Below are positions 11,135 through 29,316 of a stretch of 35,316 nucleotides of DNA, piece by piece. The stretch's first letter is position 1. Every line of letters starts with the position of its first letter. This DNA comes from Pelagibacteraceae bacterium (GTDB taxonomy: Bacteria > Pseudomonadota > Alphaproteobacteria > Pelagibacterales > Pelagibacteraceae), in the NCBI GenBank assembly GCA_009693705.1, contig SHWS01000013.1:1-35316 (forward strand), written 5' to 3'. The notes beneath the pieces are model-generated. The model did no database searches, was not told the origin of the DNA, and was given only the letters and a program-made list of their open reading frames with translations. The translations under genes and the position numbers were made by a program.

Positions 11135-11356
11135 ATGAAGAAAAAAATAAAAAAAATAAAAATTAAATTAAACGGCAAAATTAAATTAATTTCAGAAAAC
11201 ATCAAAATGTCTGATTTGATAAAAAGATTCAAAATTCCAATCAATAAAGTGGCAATTGAGCTTAACCGTGAAATAATAGATAAAAAAAATATTAATAAAA
11301 TTAATATTAAAAAAAATGACATATTAGAAATAGTTCATTTTATTGGAGGAGGTTAA
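11135..11356 (+). CDS. thiS: ThiS, sulfur carrier protein of thiazole synthesis
   Basis: A 73-residue ubiquitin-fold protein ending in Gly-Gly-Gly, with a Gly-Gly tail that is thiocarboxylated before sulfur donation to ThiG. IKLNGKIKLI (first beta hairpin), VAIELNREII and IKKNDILEIVHFIGGG match the family. It is slightly longer than usual at the N-terminus because of a Lys-rich MKKKIKKIK start, but no later Met is suitable. The gene sits directly before thiG. No thiF, thiO or thiE is visible here, so the adenylyltransferase and glycine oxidase must be elsewhere, or the pathway uses substitutes. Confidence 0.9.
   Translation: MKKKIKKIKIKLNGKIKLISENIKMSDLIKRFKIPINKVAIELNREIIDKKNINKINIKKNDILEIVHFIGGG
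11345..11350 (+). promoter_or_regulatory. Ribosome-binding site that selects the thiG TTG start
   Basis: GGAGGA lies inside the last codons of thiS (encoding its Gly-Gly tail) and is 7 bases upstream of TTG 11358. It argues for that codon over the in-frame TTG at 11343, which the Shine-Dalgarno itself follows. Most genes in this window have no site this strong. Confidence 0.7.
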
Positions 11357-11357
11357 A

Positions 11358-12131
11358 TTGAAAAAAGATAAATTGATTATTGCTAATAAAAAATTTAGCT
11401 CGAGATTAATTGTTGGAACGGGAAAATATAAAAATATGTCAGAATGCGCTAAAGCTGTTAAATTATCTGGTGCTGAGATCATAACTGTTGCTGTAAGAAG
11501 AGTTAATATATTTGATAAAAAAAAACCTCTTTTAATGGATTATATAGATCCAAAAAAAATAACTTATTTGCCTAATACTGCGGGATGTTTTAATTCCGAA
11601 GAAGCTTTAAGAACATTAAGACTAGCAAGAGATATAGGTGGTTGGAATTTAGTTAAACTAGAAGTCTTAGGTGATAAACAAAATTTGTTTCCAGATATGA
11701 TTGAAACATTAAAATCAACTGAAGTTCTTGCTAATGAAGGATTTAAAATTATGGTGTATTGTACTGATGATCCTTTAATGGCCAAACGTTTAGAAAATTC
11801 TGGTGCAAGTGCGATAATGCCATTAGCAGCACCTATCGGATCAGGTCTTGGAATACAAAATAAAATTAATATAAAGATTATAAGAAATCAAACTAAACTA
11901 CCTTTAATAATTGACGCTGGGTTAGGACAAGCATCTGATGCTGTTATTGCCATGGAATTAGGTTGTGATGGAGTTTTAGTAAATACGGCTATTGCAAAAG
12001 CAAAAAAACCTTATGAAATGGCTCTTGCTTTTAAGAATGGTGTTATTGCTGGAAGGCAATCATATCTTGCTGGGAGAATAGATAGAACTTTATCAGGTAG
12101 GCCTTCTTCACCTTTTGATGGGATTATATAG
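11358..12131 (+). CDS. thiG: ThiG, thiazole synthase
   Basis: A 257-residue TIM-barrel enzyme that joins deoxyxylulose 5-phosphate, the glycine imine and ThiS-thiocarboxylate sulfur into the thiamine thiazole. FSSRLIVGTGKY opens the barrel. WNLVKLEVLGD carries the catalytic Schiff-base Lys (residue 100). MPLAAPIGSGLGI and DAGLGQASDA form the phosphate-binding end. The TTG at 11358 is preferred because it is placed 7 bases after GGAGGA and one base after the thiS stop, and because the upstream extension MEEVK has no family counterpart. The 3' end overlaps the convergent RNase E gene by 8 bases. Confidence 0.95.
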   Translation: MKKDKLIIANKKFSSRLIVGTGKYKNMSECAKAVKLSGAEIITVAVRRVNIFDKKKPLLMDYIDPKKITYLPNTAGCFNSEEALRTLRLARDIGGWNLVKLEVLGDKQNLFPDMIETLKSTEVLANEGFKIMVYCTDDPLMAKRLENSGASAIMPLAAPIGSGLGIQNKINIKIIRNQTKLPLIIDAGLGQASDAVIAMELGCDGVLVNTAIAKAKKPYEMALAFKNGVIAGRQSYLAGRIDRTLSGRPSSPFDGII

Positions 12132-13941
12132 TTTTCTTATAAAAATTTTTTTTTTGAGGTTTTTTTGTAAATTTTTTTGCATCATAATTTTTTATCAGTT
12201 CATGATTTTTACTTTGTTGATCTAAACTTTTTAATTTTACAAAATGCTCAACAACTTCGATAGTTTTTCTTAATTTATTTTGAATATTAATTATGTATTC
12301 TGGTATTATCAAAGAATTATCAGTTATTATATCTATTGTCATTTTGTTTTTTTTTTCAAAATAAGTTAAATCATCTACAAAATTTTCTTTTAAAAAATCT
12401 GAAATTTTTTGACACACTCTTAATTCAACAAATTTAGCTTTACTGGTTATAGCTTTTAGTTCAACAGTTTTTAGTATTTTTTGAGCAAAAGATTCATCTG
12501 TAAGAATTATTTTCCATTTTATTGCACTCTCTCGAAGTCGTTGTCTGGACATTTCTAAAAGACCAAAATTGGTAATTTTTCCAATTTGGATACGTGCTCT
12601 ATCGGTTCTACATTTATCTTTTAATCTCTTTTCAACCAATCTTTTATTTCCATAGCTCAACATGTCTATAAAATCTATTATAATTAATCCTGATAAATCT
12701 CTGATTTTAATTTGTCTAGAAATCTCATCGGCAGCTTCTAGATTTGTATCTAAAGCTGTGCTCTCAATATTTTTACCTTTAATCGAGCTACCAGAGTTTA
12801 TATCAATAGACACCAATGCTTCAGTAGGATTAATTACTAAATATCCACCAGATTTAAGTTTAATTTCGGAGTCAAATATTTGATTTAATTGCTGTTCAAT
12901 GCCCTCCTGAATAAATAAAGGAATTTTACCTCTATATTTTTTTATTTTTTTTACATTTGCAGGCATCATAATTTTCATAAAATTTTGAGCCTTTTTATAA
13001 CCCTCATTTCCTTCAATAATAATATTTTTGGTATTATCATCATAGAGATCTCTTAATGTTCTTTTTATAATTTCACTTTCTTGATGTATTAAAGATGGAG
13101 CTATGGAATTAATTGCAGCATTTTTAATTTCATTCCAAGTGTTTATGAGGGTAATTAAATCCTGATTAATTTCATTTTTAGTTTTGTTACATCCGGCGGT
13201 GCGTACAATTAATCCCATCTCTTTTGGAATTTCAATTTCATTTAAAATAATTCTTATTTTCTTTCTATCTGCGGGATTAAAAATTTTCCTAGAAATACCT
13301 CCACCCTTGGGAGTGTTAGGCATTAGGACGATATATTTTCCAGCAATAGAAATGAAAGTACTTAATGCAGAACCTTTTTGTCCTCTTTCATCTTTAATAA
13401 CCTGAACCAGAATTACTTGTCCCGGCTTTATAACTTCTTGAATTTTGTATCTTTTAATAAATCTAAATTTTTTTTCGTATTTATGATCTTTATCAACTTC
13501 TTTTAAATCTATATTTTCATTATTTTGATTATTATCATTATTATTTTCAATATTTTCATTTAATTCTTTTTGAATTGGATCATCAATTTCTAATTTACCT
13601 TCAGCAATATTTTTTTCTTCTTTTGCTACAATTTCTTTCGAAAGTTCTTCTCTTGCTTTTTTTTCTTCTTCTTTTATTTTCTCAAGATCATTTTTTGGTA
13701 TTTGGTAATAATCCGATTGAATATCATTTAAAGATAAAAACCCATGTTTTTCTCTACCAAAATCTATGAACGCCGCTTGAAGAGAGGGTTCAATTCTACT
13801 TACCTTTCCAAGGTAAATATTATTCTTAATTAAATTATTTTTTAAACCTTCGTATTCGTAGTCTTCAATCTTGTCATCATGTTTGAAAACAACTCTAGTT
13901 TCATTTGGATTTGAAGCGTCAATATATAAATTTTTTTCCAT
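12124..13941 (-). CDS. rne: Ribonuclease E/G family endoribonuclease lacking the Zn-link
   Basis: A 605-residue protein with the RNase E/G catalytic core but no long C-terminal scaffold. The S1 domain starts at NNIYLGKVSRIEPSLQAAFID (residues 41-60) and is interrupted by an acidic, Glu/Asn/Lys-rich insert (about 84-160). The DNase-I-like metal-binding Asp residues are Asp380 (LVSIDINSGS) and Asp423 (IIIDFIDM). DRARIQIGKITNFGLLEMSRQRL is conserved. The CPxC zinc-link expected about 8-15 residues later is absent: LRESAIKWKIIL follows instead. The short C-terminus is Lys-rich. It probably performs general mRNA decay and rRNA/tRNA processing. Gene symbol could equally be rng. Confidence 0.9.
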   Translation of the reverse strand: MEKNLYIDASNPNETRVVFKHDDKIEDYEYEGLKNNLIKNNIYLGKVSRIEPSLQAAFIDFGREKHGFLSLNDIQSDYYQIPKNDLEKIKEEEKKAREELSKEIVAKEEKNIAEGKLEIDDPIQKELNENIENNNDNNQNNENIDLKEVDKDHKYEKKFRFIKRYKIQEVIKPGQVILVQVIKDERGQKGSALSTFISIAGKYIVLMPNTPKGGGISRKIFNPADRKKIRIILNEIEIPKEMGLIVRTAGCNKTKNEINQDLITLINTWNEIKNAAINSIAPSLIHQESEIIKRTLRDLYDDNTKNIIIEGNEGYKKAQNFMKIMMPANVKKIKKYRGKIPLFIQEGIEQQLNQIFDSEIKLKSGGYLVINPTEALVSIDINSGSSIKGKNIESTALDTNLEAADEISRQIKIRDLSGLIIIDFIDMLSYGNKRLVEKRLKDKCRTDRARIQIGKITNFGLLEMSRQRLRESAIKWKIILTDESFAQKILKTVELKAITSKAKFVELRVCQKISDFLKENFVDDLTYFEKKNKMTIDIITDNSLIIPEYIINIQNKLRKTIEVVEHFVKLKSLDQQSKNHELIKNYDAKKFTKKPQKKNFYKKTI

Positions 13942-14074: not shown

Positions 14075-16426
14075 ATGACGGAAATGAAAATAAATAAATT
14101 AATAAAAAATATATTGATCAAATCAAGTGTTTTTTTATTTATTAGTTTAATTCCTATTTTGGTTGTTTTGGTGGCCTTATCTACCAGCATTCCTGACTAT
14201 AAATTTTTAAAAAATTATAAACCCCCAATATCAAGCAAAGTATACTCTGGAGAGGGAGAGTTTGTAGCTGATTTTTCAACGGAAAAAAGAGTTTTTGTTC
14301 CATATAGTTCAATCCCTAAAAATGTTATTTATGCTTTTTTGTCAGCTGAGGATAAAAATTTTTTCTCTCATCCGGGAGTTGATTTAAAAGGTATTATAAG
14401 AGCAATTATAAACAATATTTCTAATTTAAAATCTTCAAAAAGACTAGAGGGCGCCTCAACAATAACTCAACAAGTAGCAAAAAACTTTTTATTAACAAAT
14501 GAGCTTAGTTTTAAAAGAAAAATTAAAGAAGCAATACTTGCACTAAGGATTGAACGAGCGCTTTCAAAAGAAAGAATTTTAGAGCTTTATTTAAATCAAA
14601 TTTATCTTGGAAATGGAGCTTATGGTGTTGCAGCTGCAAGCCTAGAATATTTTGACAAATCTATTGAAGAATTAAATTATGCTGAAGCTGCTTTATTAGC
14701 TGCTCTTCCAAGAGCACCTAGCAGATATAACCCATATCGAGATATTGATACAGCTAAATCCAGAAGAGATATAGTTTTAAAAAATTTATTGGATAATGAT
14801 TATATAGACTCCGAAACATATGAAGAATTATTAAAAATAAAAATTAATTTGAATAAATCAGAAAAAGTTTATTTAGAAGATGCCCAGTATTATATTGAAG
14901 ATATTAGAAAAAATATAATAGAAAAACTCTCTTACGACAAAGTCTATAAAGAAGGACTTAATATTAATACACCAATTAATTTAGAATTACAGAAAGTTGC
15001 AACTTCATCATTAAGAGCTGGTTTAATAGAGTATGACAAAAGAAAAGGCTGGCGAGGTGCATTAGAAAATAAAGAATATTCAAAAGATTGGTTTAATAAT
15101 TTAGAAAAATTAAAATTAGAAAAATCAATAAACTGGAAAATCGCAATTGTAAAAAAAATTGATCAATTTTCAGTATTAATTGAAACTGAAGATAGCTTTA
15201 TAGGAAAAATTGAATCTAAGGATATTTCTTGGACTAATAAAGAATTTAAAAATTTATTAAAAATAGGTGATATTATTTACGTAGAAAAAATTCAAGATGA
15301 TAATTTTACGTTAAGGCAATTACCACTGACCGAAGGTGCAATTGTCGTAATGGATCCTTACACGGGAAGAGTGTTAGCTTTAGCAGGTGGTTTTAGTTTT
15401 AAAAAAAGTGAATTTAACAGAGCAACCCAAGCCCTAAGGCAACCTGGTTCTGCTTTTAAACCATTTGTTTATGCGCTTGCCTTAGAAAATGAGTATAATC
15501 CTTCTTCTTTAGTTTTAGATGCTCCTTTAGTTATAGATCAAGGTCCAGGTTTAAAAATGTGGAAACCAGAAAATTATGGTAAAGAATTTTATGGATTATC
15601 AACTTTAAGATCTGGCTTGGAAAATTCTAGAAACTTGATGACAGTTCGAATTGCCCAAAATTTAGGTGCTGATAAAATTGCTAAATTTAGTAAAGAAATG
15701 GGTATTTATGACAATCCAGATGAATTGATATCAATTTCTTTGGGCTCAGGAGAAACTACTCTTCTAAAATTAACTAATGCTTACGCATCTTTTGTTAATG
15801 GAGGTAAATTAGTTGAGCCAATATTAATTGATAGAATTCAAGACAGTGAAGGGAATACAATTTTTAATAACTATCAAAGAAAATGTATCAATTGTGATTT
15901 AATCTCTTTTTCAAGCTACGATTATCCAGAAATAATGGATAACTATAAACAGATAATCTCTCCTCAAACCGCTTATCAAATAACCTCGATGCTTGAGGGA
16001 GCAATTCAAAGAGGAACTGGACAGAATTTAAAAGAATTAAATCTTAATTTAGCAGGTAAAACTGGAACTACAAATGATAATATTGATACGTGGTTTATAG
16101 GATTTACCTCAGATTTACTTATTGGAGTTTATGTTGGAAACGATAACCCGGCATCATTAGGTAAGAATGAAACAGGCGCAAGAACTGCCTTACCAATTTT
16201 TAAAAAATTTGTTTCAAAAGTTGTTCAAAAACCTGACGCAAGACCATTTAAAGTTCCAGATGGAACTGTTATGATGTTGATCGATTTTAATACAGGGCAA
16301 AAAGCTGAACCTAATACAAAAAATAAAATTGTTGAGGTTTATAAAACAAAAGATGTTAACGAGGGGCAAGTTTTAAATTTAAATAACGATAGGTTAAACA
16401 ACAACAATATATTCAAGTTCTATTAA
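14075..16426 (+). CDS. mrcA: Penicillin-binding protein 1A (bifunctional transglycosylase/transpeptidase)
   Basis: A 783-residue inner-membrane protein with its catalytic part in the periplasm. There is one membrane anchor (residues about 17-38). The glycosyltransferase domain (about 60-235) has catalytic Glu92 in SAEDKNFFSHPG and the GASTITQQVAKN block. An OB-like insert (about 320-415) precedes the transpeptidase domain, which has the active Ser459 in GSAFK, SRN at 518-520 and KTG at 662-664. It polymerises and cross-links peptidoglycan. ATG 14084 (MKINK) is a possible alternative start. It is followed directly by prfB, whose ATG overlaps its stop (TAATG). Confidence 0.95.
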   Translation: MTEMKINKLIKNILIKSSVFLFISLIPILVVLVALSTSIPDYKFLKNYKPPISSKVYSGEGEFVADFSTEKRVFVPYSSIPKNVIYAFLSAEDKNFFSHPGVDLKGIIRAIINNISNLKSSKRLEGASTITQQVAKNFLLTNELSFKRKIKEAILALRIERALSKERILELYLNQIYLGNGAYGVAAASLEYFDKSIEELNYAEAALLAALPRAPSRYNPYRDIDTAKSRRDIVLKNLLDNDYIDSETYEELLKIKINLNKSEKVYLEDAQYYIEDIRKNIIEKLSYDKVYKEGLNINTPINLELQKVATSSLRAGLIEYDKRKGWRGALENKEYSKDWFNNLEKLKLEKSINWKIAIVKKIDQFSVLIETEDSFIGKIESKDISWTNKEFKNLLKIGDIIYVEKIQDDNFTLRQLPLTEGAIVVMDPYTGRVLALAGGFSFKKSEFNRATQALRQPGSAFKPFVYALALENEYNPSSLVLDAPLVIDQGPGLKMWKPENYGKEFYGLSTLRSGLENSRNLMTVRIAQNLGADKIAKFSKEMGIYDNPDELISISLGSGETTLLKLTNAYASFVNGGKLVEPILIDRIQDSEGNTIFNNYQRKCINCDLISFSSYDYPEIMDNYKQIISPQTAYQITSMLEGAIQRGTGQNLKELNLNLAGKTGTTNDNIDTWFIGFTSDLLIGVYVGNDNPASLGKNETGARTALPIFKKFVSKVVQKPDARPFKVPDGTVMMLIDFNTGQKAEPNTKNKIVEVYKTKDVNEGQVLNLNNDRLNNNNIFKFY

Positions 16427-17521
16427 TGGATAATAAATATTTAAATATAAAACAAGAATTAGAAAAAATTAATATTAGGATTAAGGAGTATCTTTGAAAA
16501 AAATAATATTTATTTAAAGTTACAAGATCACAATAAAAAAATGGCCGATATAAATTTTTGGCATGATAAAAATTTATCAAAAAATATAATAAAAGAAAAA
16601 AAACTATTTGAAGAATTAGTTAATTCTTTTAAAAACTCGACTCAACAATTAAAAGACCTAGATGATTTACATGAACTAGCAAATAATGAAAATAATTTGT
16701 CTGTCCAAAATGAAGTTATACAAAATATAAAAGATTTAAAAAAAATTGTAAAAAAAAATGAAATAAAATGTTTCTTATCTAAGGAATCAGACTCTTTAGA
16801 CTGCTACATCGAAATTCATGCTGGAGCTGGTGGCACAGAGAGTCAAGATTGGGCTGATATGTTGAGAAGAATGTATCTCAAGTGGGCTGATCATAAAAAA
16901 TTTAAGTCAGATTTAATTAGTGAGCATAGAGGAGATGAAGCAGGGATTAAATCTACAACAATCAAAATAGAAGGCGACTATGTGTTTGGCTGGTTAAAAA
17001 ATGAGTCAGGAATTCATAGATTAGTAAGAATTTCACCTTTTGATTCTGGAGCAAGAAGGCATACTAGTTTCGCTAGTGTATGGGTCTATCCTGTTGTCGA
17101 TGAAAATATTAATATAGAGGTCTTGGAAAAAGATTTAAGAATTGATACTTATCGATCCAGCGGAGCAGGAGGACAGCACGTTAATACTACCGATAGTGCC
17201 GTTAGAATAACTCATATTCCATCAAAAATTGTTGTACAATGCCAAAATCAAAGATCGCAACATAAAAACAAAGAAACCTGCATGAATATGCTTAAAGCAA
17301 GACTTTATGATTATGAAATGAAAAAAAAAGAACAAGCTAGTGAAAATTCTGAGGAATCAAAATCTGAAATTGGATGGGGACACCAAATAAGATCATATGT
17401 TTTACAGCCCTATAGATTGGTAAAAGATAATAGAACAAATTTTGAAAGCACAAGTCCTGAAAAAGTTTTGGACGGACAAATAGATGAATTTTTAGAACAA
17501 TCTCTTTATCAAATTAAATGA
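16426..17521 (+). CDS. prfB: Peptide chain release factor 2, with programmed +1 frameshift
   Basis: RF2 is encoded in two frames. Codons 1-23 run from ATG 16426 (MDNKYLNIKQELEKI) to CTT 16492-16494 and meet TGA at 16495-16497. Skipping base 16495 continues with GAA at 16496 to the stop at 17521, giving 364 residues, next to 365 in E. coli. Reading only the second frame from ATG 16541 would lose the first 38 residues. The stop-recognition tripeptide Ser-Pro-Phe is at about 203-205, and the catalytic GGQ is at about 248-250 in SSGAGGQHVNTTDSA. It releases peptides at UGA and UAA. It sits between the PBP1A gene (TAATG overlap) and an AsmA-like gene (ATGA overlap). Confidence 0.95.
16484..16497 (+). 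promoter_or_regulatory. prfB: prfB programmed +1 frameshift site
   Basis: The site reads AGGAG-TAT-CTT-TGA: an internal Shine-Dalgarno-like AGGAG (16484-16488), a 3-base spacer, the slippery CTT codon and the in-frame TGA (16495-16497). This is the arrangement of the classical RF2 autoregulatory site (AGGGGG-TAT-CTT-TGA in E. coli). The base after the stop is A instead of C. When RF2 is scarce, termination at UGA is slow and ribosomes slip +1, making more RF2. Confidence 0.95.
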
Positions 17522-23099: not shown

Positions 23100-23124
23100 A
23101 TACTTGACTGATTTAGTCAGGTAT
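23100..23124 (+). promoter_or_regulatory. Type 1 IscR operator overlapping the iscR-suf promoter
   Basis: A 25-base imperfect palindrome: ATACTTGACT, a 5-base centre GATTT, then AGTCAGGTAT. The half-sites agree at 9 of 10 positions, and the whole fits the E. coli Type 1 IscR consensus ATASYYGACTRWWWYAGTC followed by RRSTAT. It covers the -35 box, so holo-IscR should repress iscR and the suf genes when Fe-S supply is adequate. Confidence 0.88.
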
Positions 23125-23131
23125 GTATAAA
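23104..23131 (+). promoter_or_regulatory. Promoter of the iscR-suf operon
   Basis: TTGACT (23104-23109) and TATAAA (23126-23131) are separated by 16 bases. The -35 box is part of the IscR palindrome. The predicted start site is near 23138, which excludes an in-frame ATG at 23123 and supports ATG 23156 for iscR. Confidence 0.75.
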
Positions 23132-23155
23132 AACACAACAAAAACAAACAATAAT

Positions 23156-23581
23156 ATGAAACTAACTTCTAAAGGAAGATACGCGGTAATGGCATTAGCT
23201 GACATGGCTCAATTTAACAACGTTAACCCAGTATCTTTAAGAGATATTTCCTTGCGACAGGGGATATCATTGGTTTTTTTAGAACAGATTTTTTCAAAAT
23301 TAAAAAAAAATGAAATTGTTAGAAGTATTCGAGGAACTCAAGGAGGATATGTATTAAATGGAAATCCGTCTCAGATAAAGCTAACCAAAATTCTTAATGC
23401 TGTAAATGAAGAAGTTAAAACTGTGCAATGTAAAAAAGAATCTAAAAAAGGTTGTAATGGAAAATTAACAAAATGTATTACCCACAATTTATGGGATGAA
23501 TTAGAGATTCATATTAATGATTTTTTTGAAAAAAAAAGTTTACAGGATTTAATTAAAAATAATACAGAACAAAGAATATAA
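23156..23581 (+). CDS. iscR: IscR-type Rrf2 regulator of Fe-S biogenesis
   Basis: A 141-residue winged-helix repressor. [18 protein letters not shown] is the family opening, residues about 26-66 are the recognition and wing region ([26 protein letters not shown]), and the [2Fe-2S] ligands are Cys92, Cys100, Cys107 and His110 (E. coli C92, C98, C104, H107). A 33-base longer frame from ATG 23123 is rejected because that codon lies inside the promoter and operator. The gene is first in the operon with sufB starting one base after its stop, so IscR very likely controls its own operon. Confidence 0.95.
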
Positions 23582-23582
23582 T

Positions 23583-25025
23583 ATGAATTCCATAGAAAAA
23601 AATATAGATAATTTAAAAGATTATAAATACGGCTTTATAACTGATATTGAAAATATTAGAGCTCCAAAAGGATTAAATGAAGATACAATAAAATTTATTT
23701 CTAATATTAAAAAAGAGCCAAAATGGATGCTTGATTTTAGGATTAAAGCATTTGAGAGATTAAAATTATTAAAAGAGCCGAATTGGCAAAAGCCGAAATT
23801 TCCGAAAATAGATTATCAAGATTTATATTATTATTCAGCACCAAAAAGTATGGATGATAAACCTAAAAGCTTAGATGAATTAGATCCAAAACTTTTAGAA
23901 ACTTATAAAAAACTTGGAATACCACTTCAAGAACAAGCTAGATTAAATGGAATTGCTATAGATGCAGTGTTTGATTCAGTATCAGTTGCAACAACTTTTA
24001 AAGAAGAATTGATAAAACAAGGGATCATTTTTTGTTCAATGTCTGAAGCAATTCAAAAACATTCTGAATTGGTTAGAAAATATCTAGGATCAGTAATTCC
24101 AATAACTGATCATTTTTATGCAACTCTTAATTCAGCAGTTTTCACAGATGGATCTTTTGTTTACATACCAGAAGGAATTAGATGTCCAATGGAACTCTCT
24201 ACTTACTTTAGAATAAACGCTTCAGAGACCGGACAATTTGAAAGAACTCTAATCATAGCAGATAAAGGAAGTTATGTAAGTTATCTTGAGGGATGTACCG
24301 CACCAATGAGAGATAAAAATCAACTGCATGCAGCAAATGTTGAATTAATTGCTCTTGATGATGCTGAAATAAAATATTCCACTGTTCAAAATTGGTATCC
24401 TGGGGATAAAAATGGCAAAGGTGGAATTTATAATTTTGTAACTAAACGTGGTTTGTGTAAAGGAAAAAATTCTAAAATTTCATGGACCCAGGTAGAAACT
24501 GGTTCTGCTATAACGTGGAAATATCCAAGTTGTATTTTAAAAGGAGATAATTCTGTTGGTGAGTTTTATTCAATAGCAATTACCAATAATTATCAGATGG
24601 CTGACACAGGAACTAAAATGATCCATCTTGGAAAAAATACCAGAAGCAAGATTATATCAAAAGGAATTTCAGCAGGAAATTCTGACATGATGTATCGAGG
24701 TTTGGTTGATATTTCAGCTAGAGCTGATAATTCTAGAAATTTTACGCAGTGTGATTCTCTGTTAATGGGAAATAAGTGTGGTGCACATACTATTCCCTAC
24801 ATTAAAAATAAAAATTCAAAATCTAAGATAGAGCATGAAGCGACAACATCAAAAATTAGCGATGAACAATTGTATTATTGCAAACAAAGGGGACTAAACA
24901 GCGAAGAAGCAATTAGTTTAATTGTTAATGGGTTTTGTAAAGAAGTTTTACAGCAATTGCCAATGGAATTTGCAGTTGAAGCACAGAAATTAGTAGGAAT
25001 AAGTTTAGAAGGAAGTGTAGGTTAA
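23583..25025 (+). CDS. sufB: SufB, Fe-S cluster scaffold subunit
   Basis: A 480-residue beta-helix scaffold protein that builds clusters with SufC and SufD in the cytoplasm. [37 protein letters not shown] and [11 protein letters not shown] are typical. The C-terminal block with [17 protein letters not shown] and EHEATTSKI contains the conserved Cys and Glu used in cluster assembly. The length agrees with the family. It is second in the operon and abuts sufC exactly. Confidence 0.97.
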
Positions 25026-25760
25026 ATGTTATCTATAAAAAATTTGAGAGCAAAAATTGATAATAAAGAAATTTTAAAAGGTTTAAATCTTAATATTAAC
25101 CCAGGTGAAGTTCATGCAATTATGGGCCCAAATGGATCTGGAAAAAGTACTTTATCCAATATTTTGACAGGAAAAAAAGGTTATGAAATCGAAGGAGAAG
25201 TAACTTTTGAAAAAGAAGATTTGTTAAAATTGGAGCCAGAAGAAAGAGCCCATAAGGGAATATTTTTGGCTTTTCAGTATCCTTTAGAAATTCCAGGAGT
25301 AAATACAAATATTTTTTTGAAAACTTCTATTAATGCAATTAAAAAAGCAAGAGGTGAAAAAGAATTGGATGCAATTGAATTTTTAAAATTAATAAAAAAA
25401 AAATCAGCAGATTTGAAATTTGATGAAAAAATTTTAAGTCGTCAGCTAAATGTAGGTTTTTCTGGTGGTGAAAAAAAGAAAAATGAAATTCTTCAAATGT
25501 CAATTTTAAATCCTAAGTTAGCAATTTTGGATGAAACAGACTCTGGTCTTGATATTGACGCTTTAAGGGTAGTATCTGAAGGTGTTAATACTCTTCGAAA
25601 TCAAAATAATGCGTTTTTAATAATTACACATTATCAAAGATTATTAGATTATGTCATACCCGATTATGTTCATGTTTTAAAAAATGGACAAATCATAAAA
25701 TCTGGAGGACCAGAATTAGCCAAAAATTTAGAAAAATTAGGCTACAAGGATTTTAATTAA
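25026..25760 (+). CDS. sufC: SufC, ABC-type ATPase of the SUF complex
   Basis: A 244-residue ATPase. Walker A is MGPNGSGKSTLSN (about residues 36-47), the signature loop is VGFSGGEKKKNEILQM, Walker B with its Glu is LAILDETDSGLDID, and the switch His is in LIITHYQRLL. It drives conformational change of SufBD during cluster assembly and has no membrane partner. Its stop shares a base with the sufD start (TAATG). Confidence 0.97.
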   Translation: MLSIKNLRAKIDNKEILKGLNLNINPGEVHAIMGPNGSGKSTLSNILTGKKGYEIEGEVTFEKEDLLKLEPEERAHKGIFLAFQYPLEIPGVNTNIFLKTSINAIKKARGEKELDAIEFLKLIKKKSADLKFDEKILSRQLNVGFSGGEKKKNEILQMSILNPKLAILDETDSGLDIDALRVVSEGVNTLRNQNNAFLIITHYQRLLDYVIPDYVHVLKNGQIIKSGGPELAKNLEKLGYKDFN

Positions 25761-27007
25761 TGGAAAGTCAAATTAAATTAGATTTTGAAAATTTTTTAAA
25801 TAAAGAAAAGTTTTCTAGTTCGCAAATTCAATTAAAAAAAAATAATTTTAATGAATTTATTAAAAAAGGTTTTCCTAATAAACGTATCGAAGATTGGAAA
25901 TTTTCAGATTTAAATCAAATAATTCAAACTAATATAAAAAAACTTAATTTTATAAATTCTGACATCAAAAAAGAGGATTTTGAAATAACAACTGTTAAAG
26001 ATTTTGAACATAATAAAATCATCTTTCTTAATGGCGTAATTTTAAAAGTTGATTTTACATTTGAAGAAAATGATAAAATTATAATCCAACAAAATCATAA
26101 TATTAATGAAGACAATGTAGAAAACAGTCTTGTAAGTCTAAATTCTGCTTTTGTTTCAAACTATGTTAAATTTACTGTAAAAAAAGGATATGAGACTAAA
26201 AAACCTTTAATATTTTATAACTATTTAACAAGCGATATTACTTCTTCAGCTTTAAATATAAGGATAGACATTGATTTAGAGGATGGAAGTTCACTAAATG
26301 TAGTTGATTTATCAAATCAAAATTTAAATAATAACTTTATTAATCTTAGACAAAATTTTCATATAGGAGAAAACGCTATTTTAAAAAAATACTTTTTGGA
26401 TACAGGCAATTCTCCAAATATAAAATATATTTATAATAATTTAGATCTATCCAAAAATAGTCACCTGGAATATTTTATTTTATCCAGTGGATCAAAGTTT
26501 TTGAAAAATGATATTATTTGTTCATTAAATAATGAATATGGTTCAATTTCACTAAATGGAGTAATTAATTTAGATGGTGAAAAGCATCATGAAATTAAAA
26601 CTGTTATTAATCACAAAGATGAAAATTGTAAAAGTTATCAATTAATTAAATGCGTTTTAACTGATAAATCAAAAGGTGTTTACCAAGGAAAAATTTATGT
26701 TGATAATAAAGCTCAAAAAACAGATGGATATCAATTAAGTAGAGCTCTTTTATTAAATGATCAAACAGAGTTTAACGCTAAACCAGAATTAGAAATTTAT
26801 GCAGATGATGTTAAATGTTCACATGGTTCTACCTCAGGAAACATAGATGAAGACTCTATCTTTTATTTAATGTCTAGAGGTTTAAGTTATGAACAGTCTA
26901 AGCAGTTATTAGTAAATGGATTTTTACATGAAGTATTAGAAAAGATTACAGATGAAAAAATTAAAATTTTTATAAAAAAATTAACAGGACTTGAAAATGA
27001 ATATTAG
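25760..27007 (+). CDS. sufD: SufD, Fe-S scaffold subunit
   Basis: A 415-residue paralogue of SufB that forms the SufB-SufC2-SufD complex. The N-terminal helical part (RIEDWKFSDLNQIIQ) is followed by the beta-helix. The C-terminal DVKCSHGSTSGNIDEDSIF has the family His implicated with the SufB Cys in cluster formation, followed by MSRGLSYEQSKQLLVNGFLH. The end overlaps the start of sufS by 11 bases. Sequence is more divergent than SufB, which is normal. Confidence 0.93.
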   Translation: MESQIKLDFENFLNKEKFSSSQIQLKKNNFNEFIKKGFPNKRIEDWKFSDLNQIIQTNIKKLNFINSDIKKEDFEITTVKDFEHNKIIFLNGVILKVDFTFEENDKIIIQQNHNINEDNVENSLVSLNSAFVSNYVKFTVKKGYETKKPLIFYNYLTSDITSSALNIRIDIDLEDGSSLNVVDLSNQNLNNNFINLRQNFHIGENAILKKYFLDTGNSPNIKYIYNNLDLSKNSHLEYFILSSGSKFLKNDIICSLNNEYGSISLNGVINLDGEKHHEIKTVINHKDENCKSYQLIKCVLTDKSKGVYQGKIYVDNKAQKTDGYQLSRALLLNDQTEFNAKPELEIYADDVKCSHGSTSGNIDEDSIFYLMSRGLSYEQSKQLLVNGFLHEVLEKITDEKIKIFIKKLTGLENEY

Positions 27008-28217
27008 CCAAATAAAAAAAGAATTCCCAATCTTTGATGAAAAAATTCATAATAACGATTTAGTTTATTTAGATAGCGCTAATTCATCTCAAAAACCAAA
27101 AGTCGTTATTGATAGAATTAACGAATTTTATAGCAAGCAATTTTCTAATGTCGGAAGAAGTGTTCATTATCTATCAGTTGCCGCAACAAATTTGTATGAA
27201 AATACTAGAATTTCTGTTCAAAAATATATTAACGCTAAAGATAAAAATGAAATTGTGTTTACTAAAGGAGCCACTGAAGCACTAAATCTAGTTGCAAATA
27301 CCTTGGGTCAAAAATATTTACAGGAAGGCGATGAGGTATTAATTACAGAGCTCGAGCATCATTCAAACTATGTCCCTTGGCATTTTTTAAGAAAATCTAA
27401 AAATATTAAAATTAATTTTGCAGAAATAAATGAAGACGGAGATGTTCCATTGGAAAATATTGAAAAAGCACTAACATCAAGAACAAAAGTAATTGCAATC
27501 AGTCATTTATCAAATGTAACGGGAGCAATATTGCCAATTAAAGAAATAACTGATTTAGCTCATTCTAGAGGAATAATAGTTGTGATCGATGGTTGTCAAA
27601 GCGCGCCTCATTTAAAATTAGATATGCAAGATTTGGATTGTGATTTTTATGCAATTTCATGCCACAAAATGTACGGACCTACTGGACTGGGTATTCTTTA
27701 TGGCAAAAAAAAATGGTTAGAGGAACTTCCGCCATATCAAGGTGGTGGTGGGATGATTAAAGAGGTTAAAAAGGACAGAATTTCTTACAGTGATTTGCCT
27801 AATAAATATGAAGCAGGTACAATGGCCACTGCCCAAGTAATTGCTTTTGATCAGTCTATTAAATTTATGGAAAATATTGGCATAGAAAAAATTATGCTAC
27901 ATGAAAAAGAGCTAATAGAGTACGGACAAGAACTGTTGAGAAAAAATAATTCAGTGAAATTAATTGGCAATCCTAAAAACAAAGGTGGAGTTTTATCATT
28001 TACAGTAGAGGGAATTCATCCACATGATATTGCAACTATATTAGATGAAGATGGTATTGCGATAAGAGCAGGCCATCACTGTTGTCAAATTTTACATGAT
28101 AAACTGGGGATAACAGCTAGCGCTAGAGCATCAGTTGGTATTTATAATACCAAAGATGATTTGGACAAATTAAATAATTCAATAAATAATTGTAAAAAAA
28201 TATTTAATCTAAAATGA
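26997..28217 (+). CDS. sufS: SufS, group II cysteine desulfurase
   Basis: A 406-residue PLP enzyme that releases sulfur from cysteine for SUF assembly. The PLP Lys is Lys224 (SCHKMYGPTG) and the active-site Cys is Cys362 (RAGHHCCQ). Other blocks are YLDSANSSQKP and ELEHHSNYVPW. ATG 26997 is chosen over TTG 26991: it gives MNISQIKKEFPIF, and the earlier codon adds only two residues. It overlaps sufU by ATGA (28214-28217). No sufE is seen, and the neighbouring SufU can serve as sulfur acceptor. Confidence 0.96.
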   Translation: MNISQIKKEFPIFDEKIHNNDLVYLDSANSSQKPKVVIDRINEFYSKQFSNVGRSVHYLSVAATNLYENTRISVQKYINAKDKNEIVFTKGATEALNLVANTLGQKYLQEGDEVLITELEHHSNYVPWHFLRKSKNIKINFAEINEDGDVPLENIEKALTSRTKVIAISHLSNVTGAILPIKEITDLAHSRGIIVVIDGCQSAPHLKLDMQDLDCDFYAISCHKMYGPTGLGILYGKKKWLEELPPYQGGGGMIKEVKKDRISYSDLPNKYEAGTMATAQVIAFDQSIKFMENIGIEKIMLHEKELIEYGQELLRKNNSVKLIGNPKNKGGVLSFTVEGIHPHDIATILDEDGIAIRAGHHCCQILHDKLGITASARASVGIYNTKDDLDKLNNSINNCKKIFNLK

Positions 28218-28678
28218 ATTTAAAAGAACTTTACCAAGAAATAATTCTAGAACATGGAAAAAATCCAAAAAATCTTGGAAAAACAGAAAATTTTAATAAA
28301 GAGGCAAAAGGAAATAACCCTTTATGTGGAGACAATGTTCATGTGTATCTAAAATTAAATGATAAAAAAAATGTTGAAGATATATCTTTTGAAGGTAGCG
28401 GGTGTGCCATTTCCATGGCTTCAGCATCTATTATGACAGATTTAATTAAAGGGAAAAACCTTATTGAAGCTAAAGAAATTATTGAAGATTTTTTAGGAAT
28501 GATAAAAGAAAATCCAGAATTGCACTCAAAAAATTTAACTGATGATGAAAAAACAAAACTCATGTGCTTATCGGGTGTTAAACAGTATCCAATGAGAGTA
28601 AAATGTGCTACTCTTTCTTGGCATACTTTGGTTTCTGCTTTTGAAAATAAAAAAGCAGAAGTTAATACAGAAAATTAA
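28214..28678 (+). CDS. sufU: SufU, Fe-S assembly/sulfur acceptor protein
   Basis: A 154-residue member of the SUF-type NifU/IscU family. The three ligand Cys are Cys38 (NPLCGD, with Asp40), Cys64 (GSGCAIS) and Cys131 (RVKCATLSW). The stretch between the last two is longer than in IscU, which is the mark of SufU proteins. In Gram-positive bacteria these accept sulfur from SufS and bind zinc. Placement directly after sufS supports that role here. It is separate from SufT by 6 bases. Confidence 0.92.
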   Translation: MNLKELYQEIILEHGKNPKNLGKTENFNKEAKGNNPLCGDNVHVYLKLNDKKNVEDISFEGSGCAISMASASIMTDLIKGKNLIEAKEIIEDFLGMIKENPELHSKNLTDDEKTKLMCLSGVKQYPMRVKCATLSWHTLVSAFENKKAEVNTEN

Positions 28679-28684
28679 AATATT

Positions 28685-28984
28685 ATGTCGACAAAAGAAA
28701 AAATTATTGAAGAAATAAAAAAAATTTACGATCCTGAATTACCAGTAAATATTTATGAATTAGGATTAATTTATGATATTCAAGTTGAAAATAATAATTT
28801 TGCAAAAATTAAAATGACCTTAACAACTCCAAATTGTCCAGTCGCTGAAAGTTTACCAAAAGAAGTTAAAAATGGCGTGATGCAAGTGGAAGGTATTGAG
28901 AATGTCGATCTCGAACTAGTTTGGGACCCCCCATGGAATAAAGACATGATGTCCGAAGCTGCTAAATTGGAGTTAAATTTATAA
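28685..28984 (+). CDS. sufT: SufT-like DUF59/MIP18 protein
   Basis: A 99-residue protein of the DUF59 (PF01883) family. IYDPELPVNIYELGLIYDIQV, LTTPNCPVAESLP with its conserved Cys, and a C-terminal VWDPPWNKDMMSE match the small SUF-associated members. Known relatives help Fe-S cluster maturation under high demand. It lies between sufU and sufA, its stop shares a base with the sufA start, and it should be in the same transcript. Whether it binds a cluster cannot be told. Confidence 0.9.
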   Translation: MSTKEKIIEEIKKIYDPELPVNIYELGLIYDIQVENNNFAKIKMTLTTPNCPVAESLPKEVKNGVMQVEGIENVDLELVWDPPWNKDMMSEAAKLELNL

Positions 28985-29316
28985 TGAATCAGATAATCAA
29001 ATTAAGCGAAAATGCTGCATTAAGAATAAGAGAAATAATGTCAAATGCTGAAAAAGATTCTTTAGGTGTAAGAGTTTCAGTGAAGACAGGAGGATGTGCA
29101 GGAATGTCTTATGTTTTAGAATATAGTAAAAAAATCAATCCTAATGATGAAATAATTGAAGATAAGGGTGTCAAAGTTTTTGTCGACTCAGCTGCCATAA
29201 TGTATTTATTGGGTACTGAAATGGACTACAAAAAAGATGAACTTTCCTCATCATTTGTTTTTAATAACCCCAATGAAACTGAGCGTTGTGGATGTGGAGA
29301 GTCTTTTAAAATATAG
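28984..29316 (+). CDS. sufA: SufA/IscA-type Fe-S carrier protein
   Basis: A 110-residue A-type carrier that receives clusters from SufBCD and passes them to apo-enzymes. The three ligand Cys are in KTGGCAGMSY and the C-terminal RCGCGESFKI. It is the last gene of the operon. Whether it is best called SufA, IscA or ErpA cannot be decided by motif, but its position favours SufA. The next 59 bases up to a short ORF hold no obvious terminator. Confidence 0.93.
   Translation: MNQIIKLSENAALRIREIMSNAEKDSLGVRVSVKTGGCAGMSYVLEYSKKINPNDEIIEDKGVKVFVDSAAIMYLLGTEMDYKKDELSSSFVFNNPNETERCGCGESFKI

Follow-up and report, generated by a model that had tools for sequence, protein, structure and literature searches.

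The window analyzed here, the whole 35,316-nucleotide stretch of Pelagibacteraceae DNA, carries an rne gene on the minus strand (positions 12124 to 13941) whose 605-amino-acid product is an RNase E/G without a zinc link. Its divergent neighbor, a plus-strand gene for a PBP1A-family penicillin-binding protein (14075 to 16426), is followed by prfB, encoding release factor 2 (16541 to 17521, plus strand). On the other side, rne converges with a plus-strand open reading frame (11343 to 12131), with an 8-base overlap (12124 to 12131); this frame looks ThiG-like by eye, and its NCBIfam matches were weak and all below cutoff. A PBP1A-like reading frame, also seen by eye, adjoins rne in a second alphaproteobacterial locus (L186). 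Elsewhere in the window, a row of Fe-S assembly genes was recognized by eye (23123 to 29316), with an Rrf2-type regulator, SufB, SufC, SufD, SufS, a SufU-like protein, and small partners.

In a search of the 1.29-Mb genome, the rne product was the sole match to PF10150, scoring 311.6 bits against a cutoff of 25.5 over residues 198 to 468 (Pfam), and its score of 451.5 bits against TIGR00757 (NCBIfam; cutoff, 325.95) places it within RNase E/G. Scores were below cutoff for the RNase G equivalog NF008689 (268.9 bits versus 594), even though RNase G shares both the PF10150 catalytic core and the short length of the window protein, and also for the RNase E equivalog NF008074, whose profile is 1068 positions long (405.9 versus 908). 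Among solved structures the best match was E. coli RNase E (2bx2 at 8.6e-104, with the best stretch at residues 164 to 472), and RNase E chains also headed the Foldseek list obtained with the predicted model.

The catalytic and 5′-sensor residues are in place. The PF10150 core (positions 12538 to 13350, minus strand) contains D380, N382, and D423 of the active site and R247/T248 of the 5′ sensor, which were invariant across 36 aligned proteins and which we take to be the equivalents of E. coli D303, N305, D346, R169, and T170. In having these catalytic and 5′-sensor residues the window protein resembles E. coli RNase E (2bx2 and 2vmk), from which it differs in lacking CPxCxGxG and the C-terminal half and in carrying an insert within its S1 domain, a domain also found by Pfam. 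This charged insert (residues about 83 to 164; positions 13450 to 13695, minus strand) contains a helix at residues 83 to 114 in the predicted model, at low confidence (block means, 54 to 58). Such inserts within S1 are described for alphaproteobacterial RNase E in PMC4245959, where a Caulobacter fragment with the insert binds RhlB, and the window protein shares both the insert and the domain order with the enzymes of Caulobacter crescentus and other alphaproteobacteria.

Between the core and the small domain, the block LLEMSRQRL (residues 461 to 469) runs directly into a shortened linker, LRESAIKWKIIL (residues 469 to 480; positions 12502 to 12537, minus strand), at the site of an 11-residue deletion of the zinc link. 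The first-pass annotation of this DNA had proposed that the zinc-link cysteines were absent after the SRQRL block of an enzyme with intact catalytic aspartates 380 and 423, with Cys 444 preceding the block and the cysteine of a VCQKI stretch lying downstream, and closer analysis bore out each point. The only cysteines in the window protein are at 251, 444, and 510 (VCQKI spans residues 509 to 513), and no CxxC occurs anywhere in its 605 amino acids. In a 15-core alignment of ten Pelagibacterales proteins and five zinc-link alphaproteobacterial proteins, all ten Pelagibacterales rows shared one clean 11-column gap over the CPHCxGxG stretch, so that SRQRL is followed by RESAIKWKIILTDES in the window protein versus RPSLLESSTMPCPHCQGRGYVRSIES in locus L052. 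The deletion thus takes out CPxCxGxG, the motif that marks a zinc-linked RNase E and lies where the DNase I subdomain gives way to the small domain.

The link region was read in 339 loci in all, and the loss, which the first-pass annotation had proposed checking across the clade, was universal in Pelagibacterales (SAR11) and was found in no other alphaproteobacterial locus read. CxxC was absent from 90 of 90 Pelagibacterales loci, representing two families and 89 distinct cores; these comprise 71 genomes of the order (the window's included) and 19 Pelagibacteraceae records, the Pelagibacterales label resting on the 19 nearest relatives titled Pelagibacteraceae and on kinship codes. Other Alphaproteobacteria kept CxxC in 201 of 201 loci read, 200 from the alphaproteobacterial sets (197 by script, with L186, L320, and L321 by eye) and one (L233) from the phylum set. 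These 200 loci combine 61 named loci with 139 from the class sample, in which 187 genomes outside Pelagibacterales had a match (one match per genome, 48 matched genomes being left out of the reading). Named and other records may partly represent the same species. CxxC was also present in 49 of 49 loci of the phylum set, or 48 of 48 from other Pseudomonadota after setting aside the alphaproteobacterial L233. Because Cyanobacteria, Actinobacteria, and Bacteroidota lay outside the sample, the loss can be described as specific to Pelagibacterales only with respect to the Pseudomonadota loci read.

That the missing cysteines might simply be a trait of short or RNase G-type enzymes, a reading that would have undone the original observation, was ruled out by the same data. 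Thirty-two of the 48 loci from other Pseudomonadota were RNase G-like, with the signature LGLxx(M/L)TRKR, and unlike the window protein, all 32 keep CxxC. Short alphaproteobacterial RNase E proteins outside Pelagibacterales likewise differ from the window protein in retaining it, for example, L108 (open frame of 562 amino acids) and L320 and L321 (598 amino acids). More generally, the RNase E proteins of other alphaproteobacteria differ in keeping CxxC and in having mostly longer open frames, where the window protein has the invariant Trp/Leu pair in its linker and ends in nothing more than a Lys-rich tail.

In a tree with 127 rows (24 without the link, 103 with it), built by a quick method from the 265 residues preceding the FGLLEMSRQR block plus nine and excluding the link itself, a single change of state accounted for the loss (SH-aLRT, 96), with warnings for long branches among the zinc-link rows and for odd composition in L001 and L106. 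Judged from its distribution and from the tree, the 11-residue deletion of the zinc link happened in the common ancestor of Pelagibacterales, within the loci read. No RNase E/G match was obtained in 5 of 118 genomes of the order, 3 of which (G098, G107, and G110, all of the window's own genus) are 94% complete, or in 4 of 41 genomes of another sample, and these cases are taken as probable assembly gaps. In another Pelagibacterales genome (G103), the RNase E frame (L323) ends early, within the small domain.

A 2025 paper describes CxxC as “conserved throughout” alphaproteobacterial RNase E homologues (PMC12510024), and neither SAR11 nor Pelagibacter turned up when its main text was searched for these words. 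The SAR11 enzyme is a clear exception to CxxC conservation in alphaproteobacteria. Literature searches, for which most subscription papers were out of reach, yielded no publication on zinc-link loss in SAR11. The zinc link has been regarded as structurally necessary for RNase E, and SAR11 offers a natural exception, common to all sampled members of the order, in which the rest of the enzyme is intact, making it testable what the zinc is for and whether bulk mRNA decay needs tetramers. SAR11 are very abundant marine bacteria, and RNase E is their main RNA-cutting enzyme.

Where the link is missing, two residues of the shortened linker, W476 (positions 12514 to 12516, minus strand) and L480 (12502 to 12504, minus strand), did not vary in any of the 89 distinct Pelagibacterales cores, despite the presence of 53 different 24-residue motif-plus-linker strings, and positions 473, 475, 477 to 479, and 482 vary freely in the order. 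Outside Pelagibacterales, none of 246 scripted loci had the arrangement R-x(5-7)-W-x3-L at the linker. A Trp kept in an otherwise drifting spacer is best read as having a packing role, which might be within or between chains. The first-pass annotation had passed over this Trp/Leu pair, as it had the retained small domain and the stepwise erosion of the C-terminal GWW motif in the order. The linker was modeled less well than the domains around it, with block means of 60 and 78 in two models.

Columns fixed in Pelagibacterales and conserved as a different residue elsewhere (53 versus 95 rows, at thresholds of 95% and 85%) numbered only two in the core, K202 and K412, both of them Lys-for-Arg replacements. 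With only these two conservative replacements specific to Pelagibacterales, nothing points to a remodeled DNase I face, and a rebuilt interface of this kind was dropped as a candidate. The predicted DNase I domain and its V. cholerae counterpart superposed at 0.9 Å over 109 residues. Comparison of the DNase I and small domains of the model with residues 277 to 498 of E. coli RNase E aligned about 200 residues with a Z score of about 20 and a root mean square deviation of about 8 Å, the latter because the two domains of the monomer model do not have the relative orientation found in E. coli.

The small, thioredoxin-like domain (residues about 481 to 566; positions 12244 to 12501, minus strand) was predicted with a pLDDT mostly above 90. 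PF20833 matched residues 480 to 551 of the window protein at 28.6 bits (cutoff, 26.8), far below the 83 to 110 bits found in ten zinc-link alphaproteobacteria, in part because the profile begins at the deleted motif; in L168, for example, the profile match starts at 617 and CPHC lies at 618. Pfam recognized the domain in 18 of 19 members, the window included, and the remaining one had no match at an E value of 0.001. At matched core divergence, it diverges about as in zinc-link alphaproteobacteria in three of four bins: small-domain identities were 0.257 in Pelagibacterales and 0.285 in other alphaproteobacteria at a core identity of 0.5 to 0.6, 0.377 and 0.363 at 0.6 to 0.7, and 0.417 and 0.408 at 0.7 to 0.8. 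The closest bin (0.8 to 0.9) gave an opposite trend, with 0.542 in Pelagibacterales versus 0.699 in other alphaproteobacteria. A relaxed small domain, also considered, was unsupported in three of the four bins and weakly supported in the closest one. Retention of the active site, the 5′ sensor, and the small domain shows that this enzyme is still under strong constraint.

For the assembly of such an enzyme, the first-pass annotation had suggested a dimer or an interface formed in another way. The question can be approached from the E. coli architecture set out in PMC2631609, in which the dimer interface consists mainly of self-complementary contacts between DNase I subdomains, small domains join dimers, and zinc lies between, and in which mutation or deletion of the zinc link prevents tetramers and substantially reduces activity. 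According to PMC12510024, RNase E activity is preserved when the tetramer is kept artificially, and a Caulobacter RNase E preparation showed no zinc binding in vitro. In the account of PMC3997798, the 5′ end binds a pocket of one protomer and cleavage occurs in an active site; we take this to be the partner protomer's, in which case the dimer would be worth retaining.

Following the ancestral 11-residue deletion, which removed CPxCxGxG, SAR11 RNase E most likely still forms an oligomer. Its principal dimer would rest on the self-complementary DNase I contacts already dominant in E. coli, and the shortened linker would replace the zinc clamp, with W476 and L480 packing on the partner or at the hinge between the large and small domains. 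Since the small domain has been retained, two such dimers might also pair without metal. Zinc would then no longer be needed for building the active enzyme. Points against this reading are the lower modeling confidence of the linker, the reduced Pfam score of the small domain and its lower identity in the closest divergence bin, the one member with no Pfam match, and the early stop in L323. To the core of this proposal, a zinc-free, DNase I-mediated principal dimer in which the Trp/Leu linker replaces the zinc clamp, we give an even chance. Its fuller version, a Pelagibacterales-wide swap of a metal-sharing clamp for a Trp/Leu linker across the dimer that would yield a zinc-independent oligomer with full 5′-end-dependent activity, is put forward more tentatively.

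The main rival to the Trp/Leu clamp is plain loss of the tetramer under genome streamlining, in which the zinc link and the tetramer would have gone together, leaving an enzyme of basal activity that is a DNase I-mediated dimer or perhaps just a monomer, and Trp/Leu would serve only as an intrachain anchor of the small domain to the large one. The dependence of E. coli tetramers on the zinc link (PMC2631609) speaks for this possibility, which we consider somewhat doubtful: the small domain, which makes the dimer-dimer contacts, is kept in all but one of the members searched with Pfam, and in three of the four divergence bins it is about as conserved as in alphaproteobacteria with the link.

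Zinc economy, in which the link was dropped owing to the scarcity of zinc in surface seawater, appears unlikely as the explanation and could account for no more than a share of what is seen. In its favor, the link is missing across the order as sampled, and PMC4771312 describes a pelagic surface ocean extremely poor in zinc and a minimized versatility of trace-metal uptake in SAR11; the same account notes high-affinity zinc uptake as an exception, however, znuA being present in 50% of the SAR11 genomes it examined. Against this explanation also stand the four CxxCxGxG repeats kept by DnaJ of the window genome and the CxxC pairs kept by a UvrA-like protein named by eye, from which it follows that zinc knuckles were not purged wholesale. 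Ribosomal protein L36 (PF00444) matched two loci in the genome (L345 and L346), where no open reading frame contains C..C...C. Since cysteine-free L36 is usual in alphaproteobacteria, this does not discriminate.

Replacement of the zinc link by another metal or by a disulfide elsewhere in the protein is very improbable. Two candidates, C444 and H286, occur in 57% and 80%, respectively, of the distinct Pelagibacterales cores, and every Cys and His position varies within the order across residues about 129 to 570 (residues 1 to 128 and the tail being left out). A sequencing or assembly error, raised by the first-pass annotation as a way in which the loss might prove false, or a pseudogene or degenerate paralogue, was ruled out by the identical deletion in 90 loci, by the single copy in the genome, and by the intact catalytic residues.

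The first-pass annotation had also stated that the C-terminal degradosome scaffold is missing, which holds for the window protein and does not extend to the whole order. After the small domain, the window protein has only a Lys-rich tail of about 36 residues ending in KKNFYKKTI (residues 570 to 605; positions 12127 to 12234, minus strand; pLDDT below 50), with no GWW and no long C-terminal region, and thus no scaffold. In alphaproteobacterial RNase E, GWW is where PNPase binds (PMC3376730), and PNPase is encoded in the window's genome. A C-terminal GWW, a feature that f2 Pelagibacterales share with the enzymes of Caulobacter and other alphaproteobacteria, was found in the 16 f2 genomes read and in L177, or 17 of 90 Pelagibacterales loci. 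Tails of the form LW(V/I/T)R end 14 f1 loci, and Lys-rich, KKRFYKK-like tails were seen by eye in most remaining loci, the window's genus among them. The tails compared were those of L002 to L014, L021, L044, L133, and L177 versus those of L032 to L040, L042, L049, L131, L164, L166, and the window, and four further frames (L016, L019, L045, and L155) run off the end of the locus before the C terminus. In other alphaproteobacteria, GWW lies within the last 40 residues in 108 of 193 loci, a set in which many frames are truncated where the locus ends.

Because f2 keeps GWW and the window tail is without it, the PNPase site was lost inside Pelagibacterales, after the zinc link. Short RNase E in Pelagibacterales and Rickettsiales had already been noted in PMC5436854, whose passages on length make no mention of the zinc link, and the window protein matches that description in its short length. 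Across the order, the tails suggest that PNPase docking was lost by degrees: GWW is kept in f2, some f1 loci have what looks like a decayed form of it (LWVRRKK), and Lys-rich ends take its place in the window's genus.
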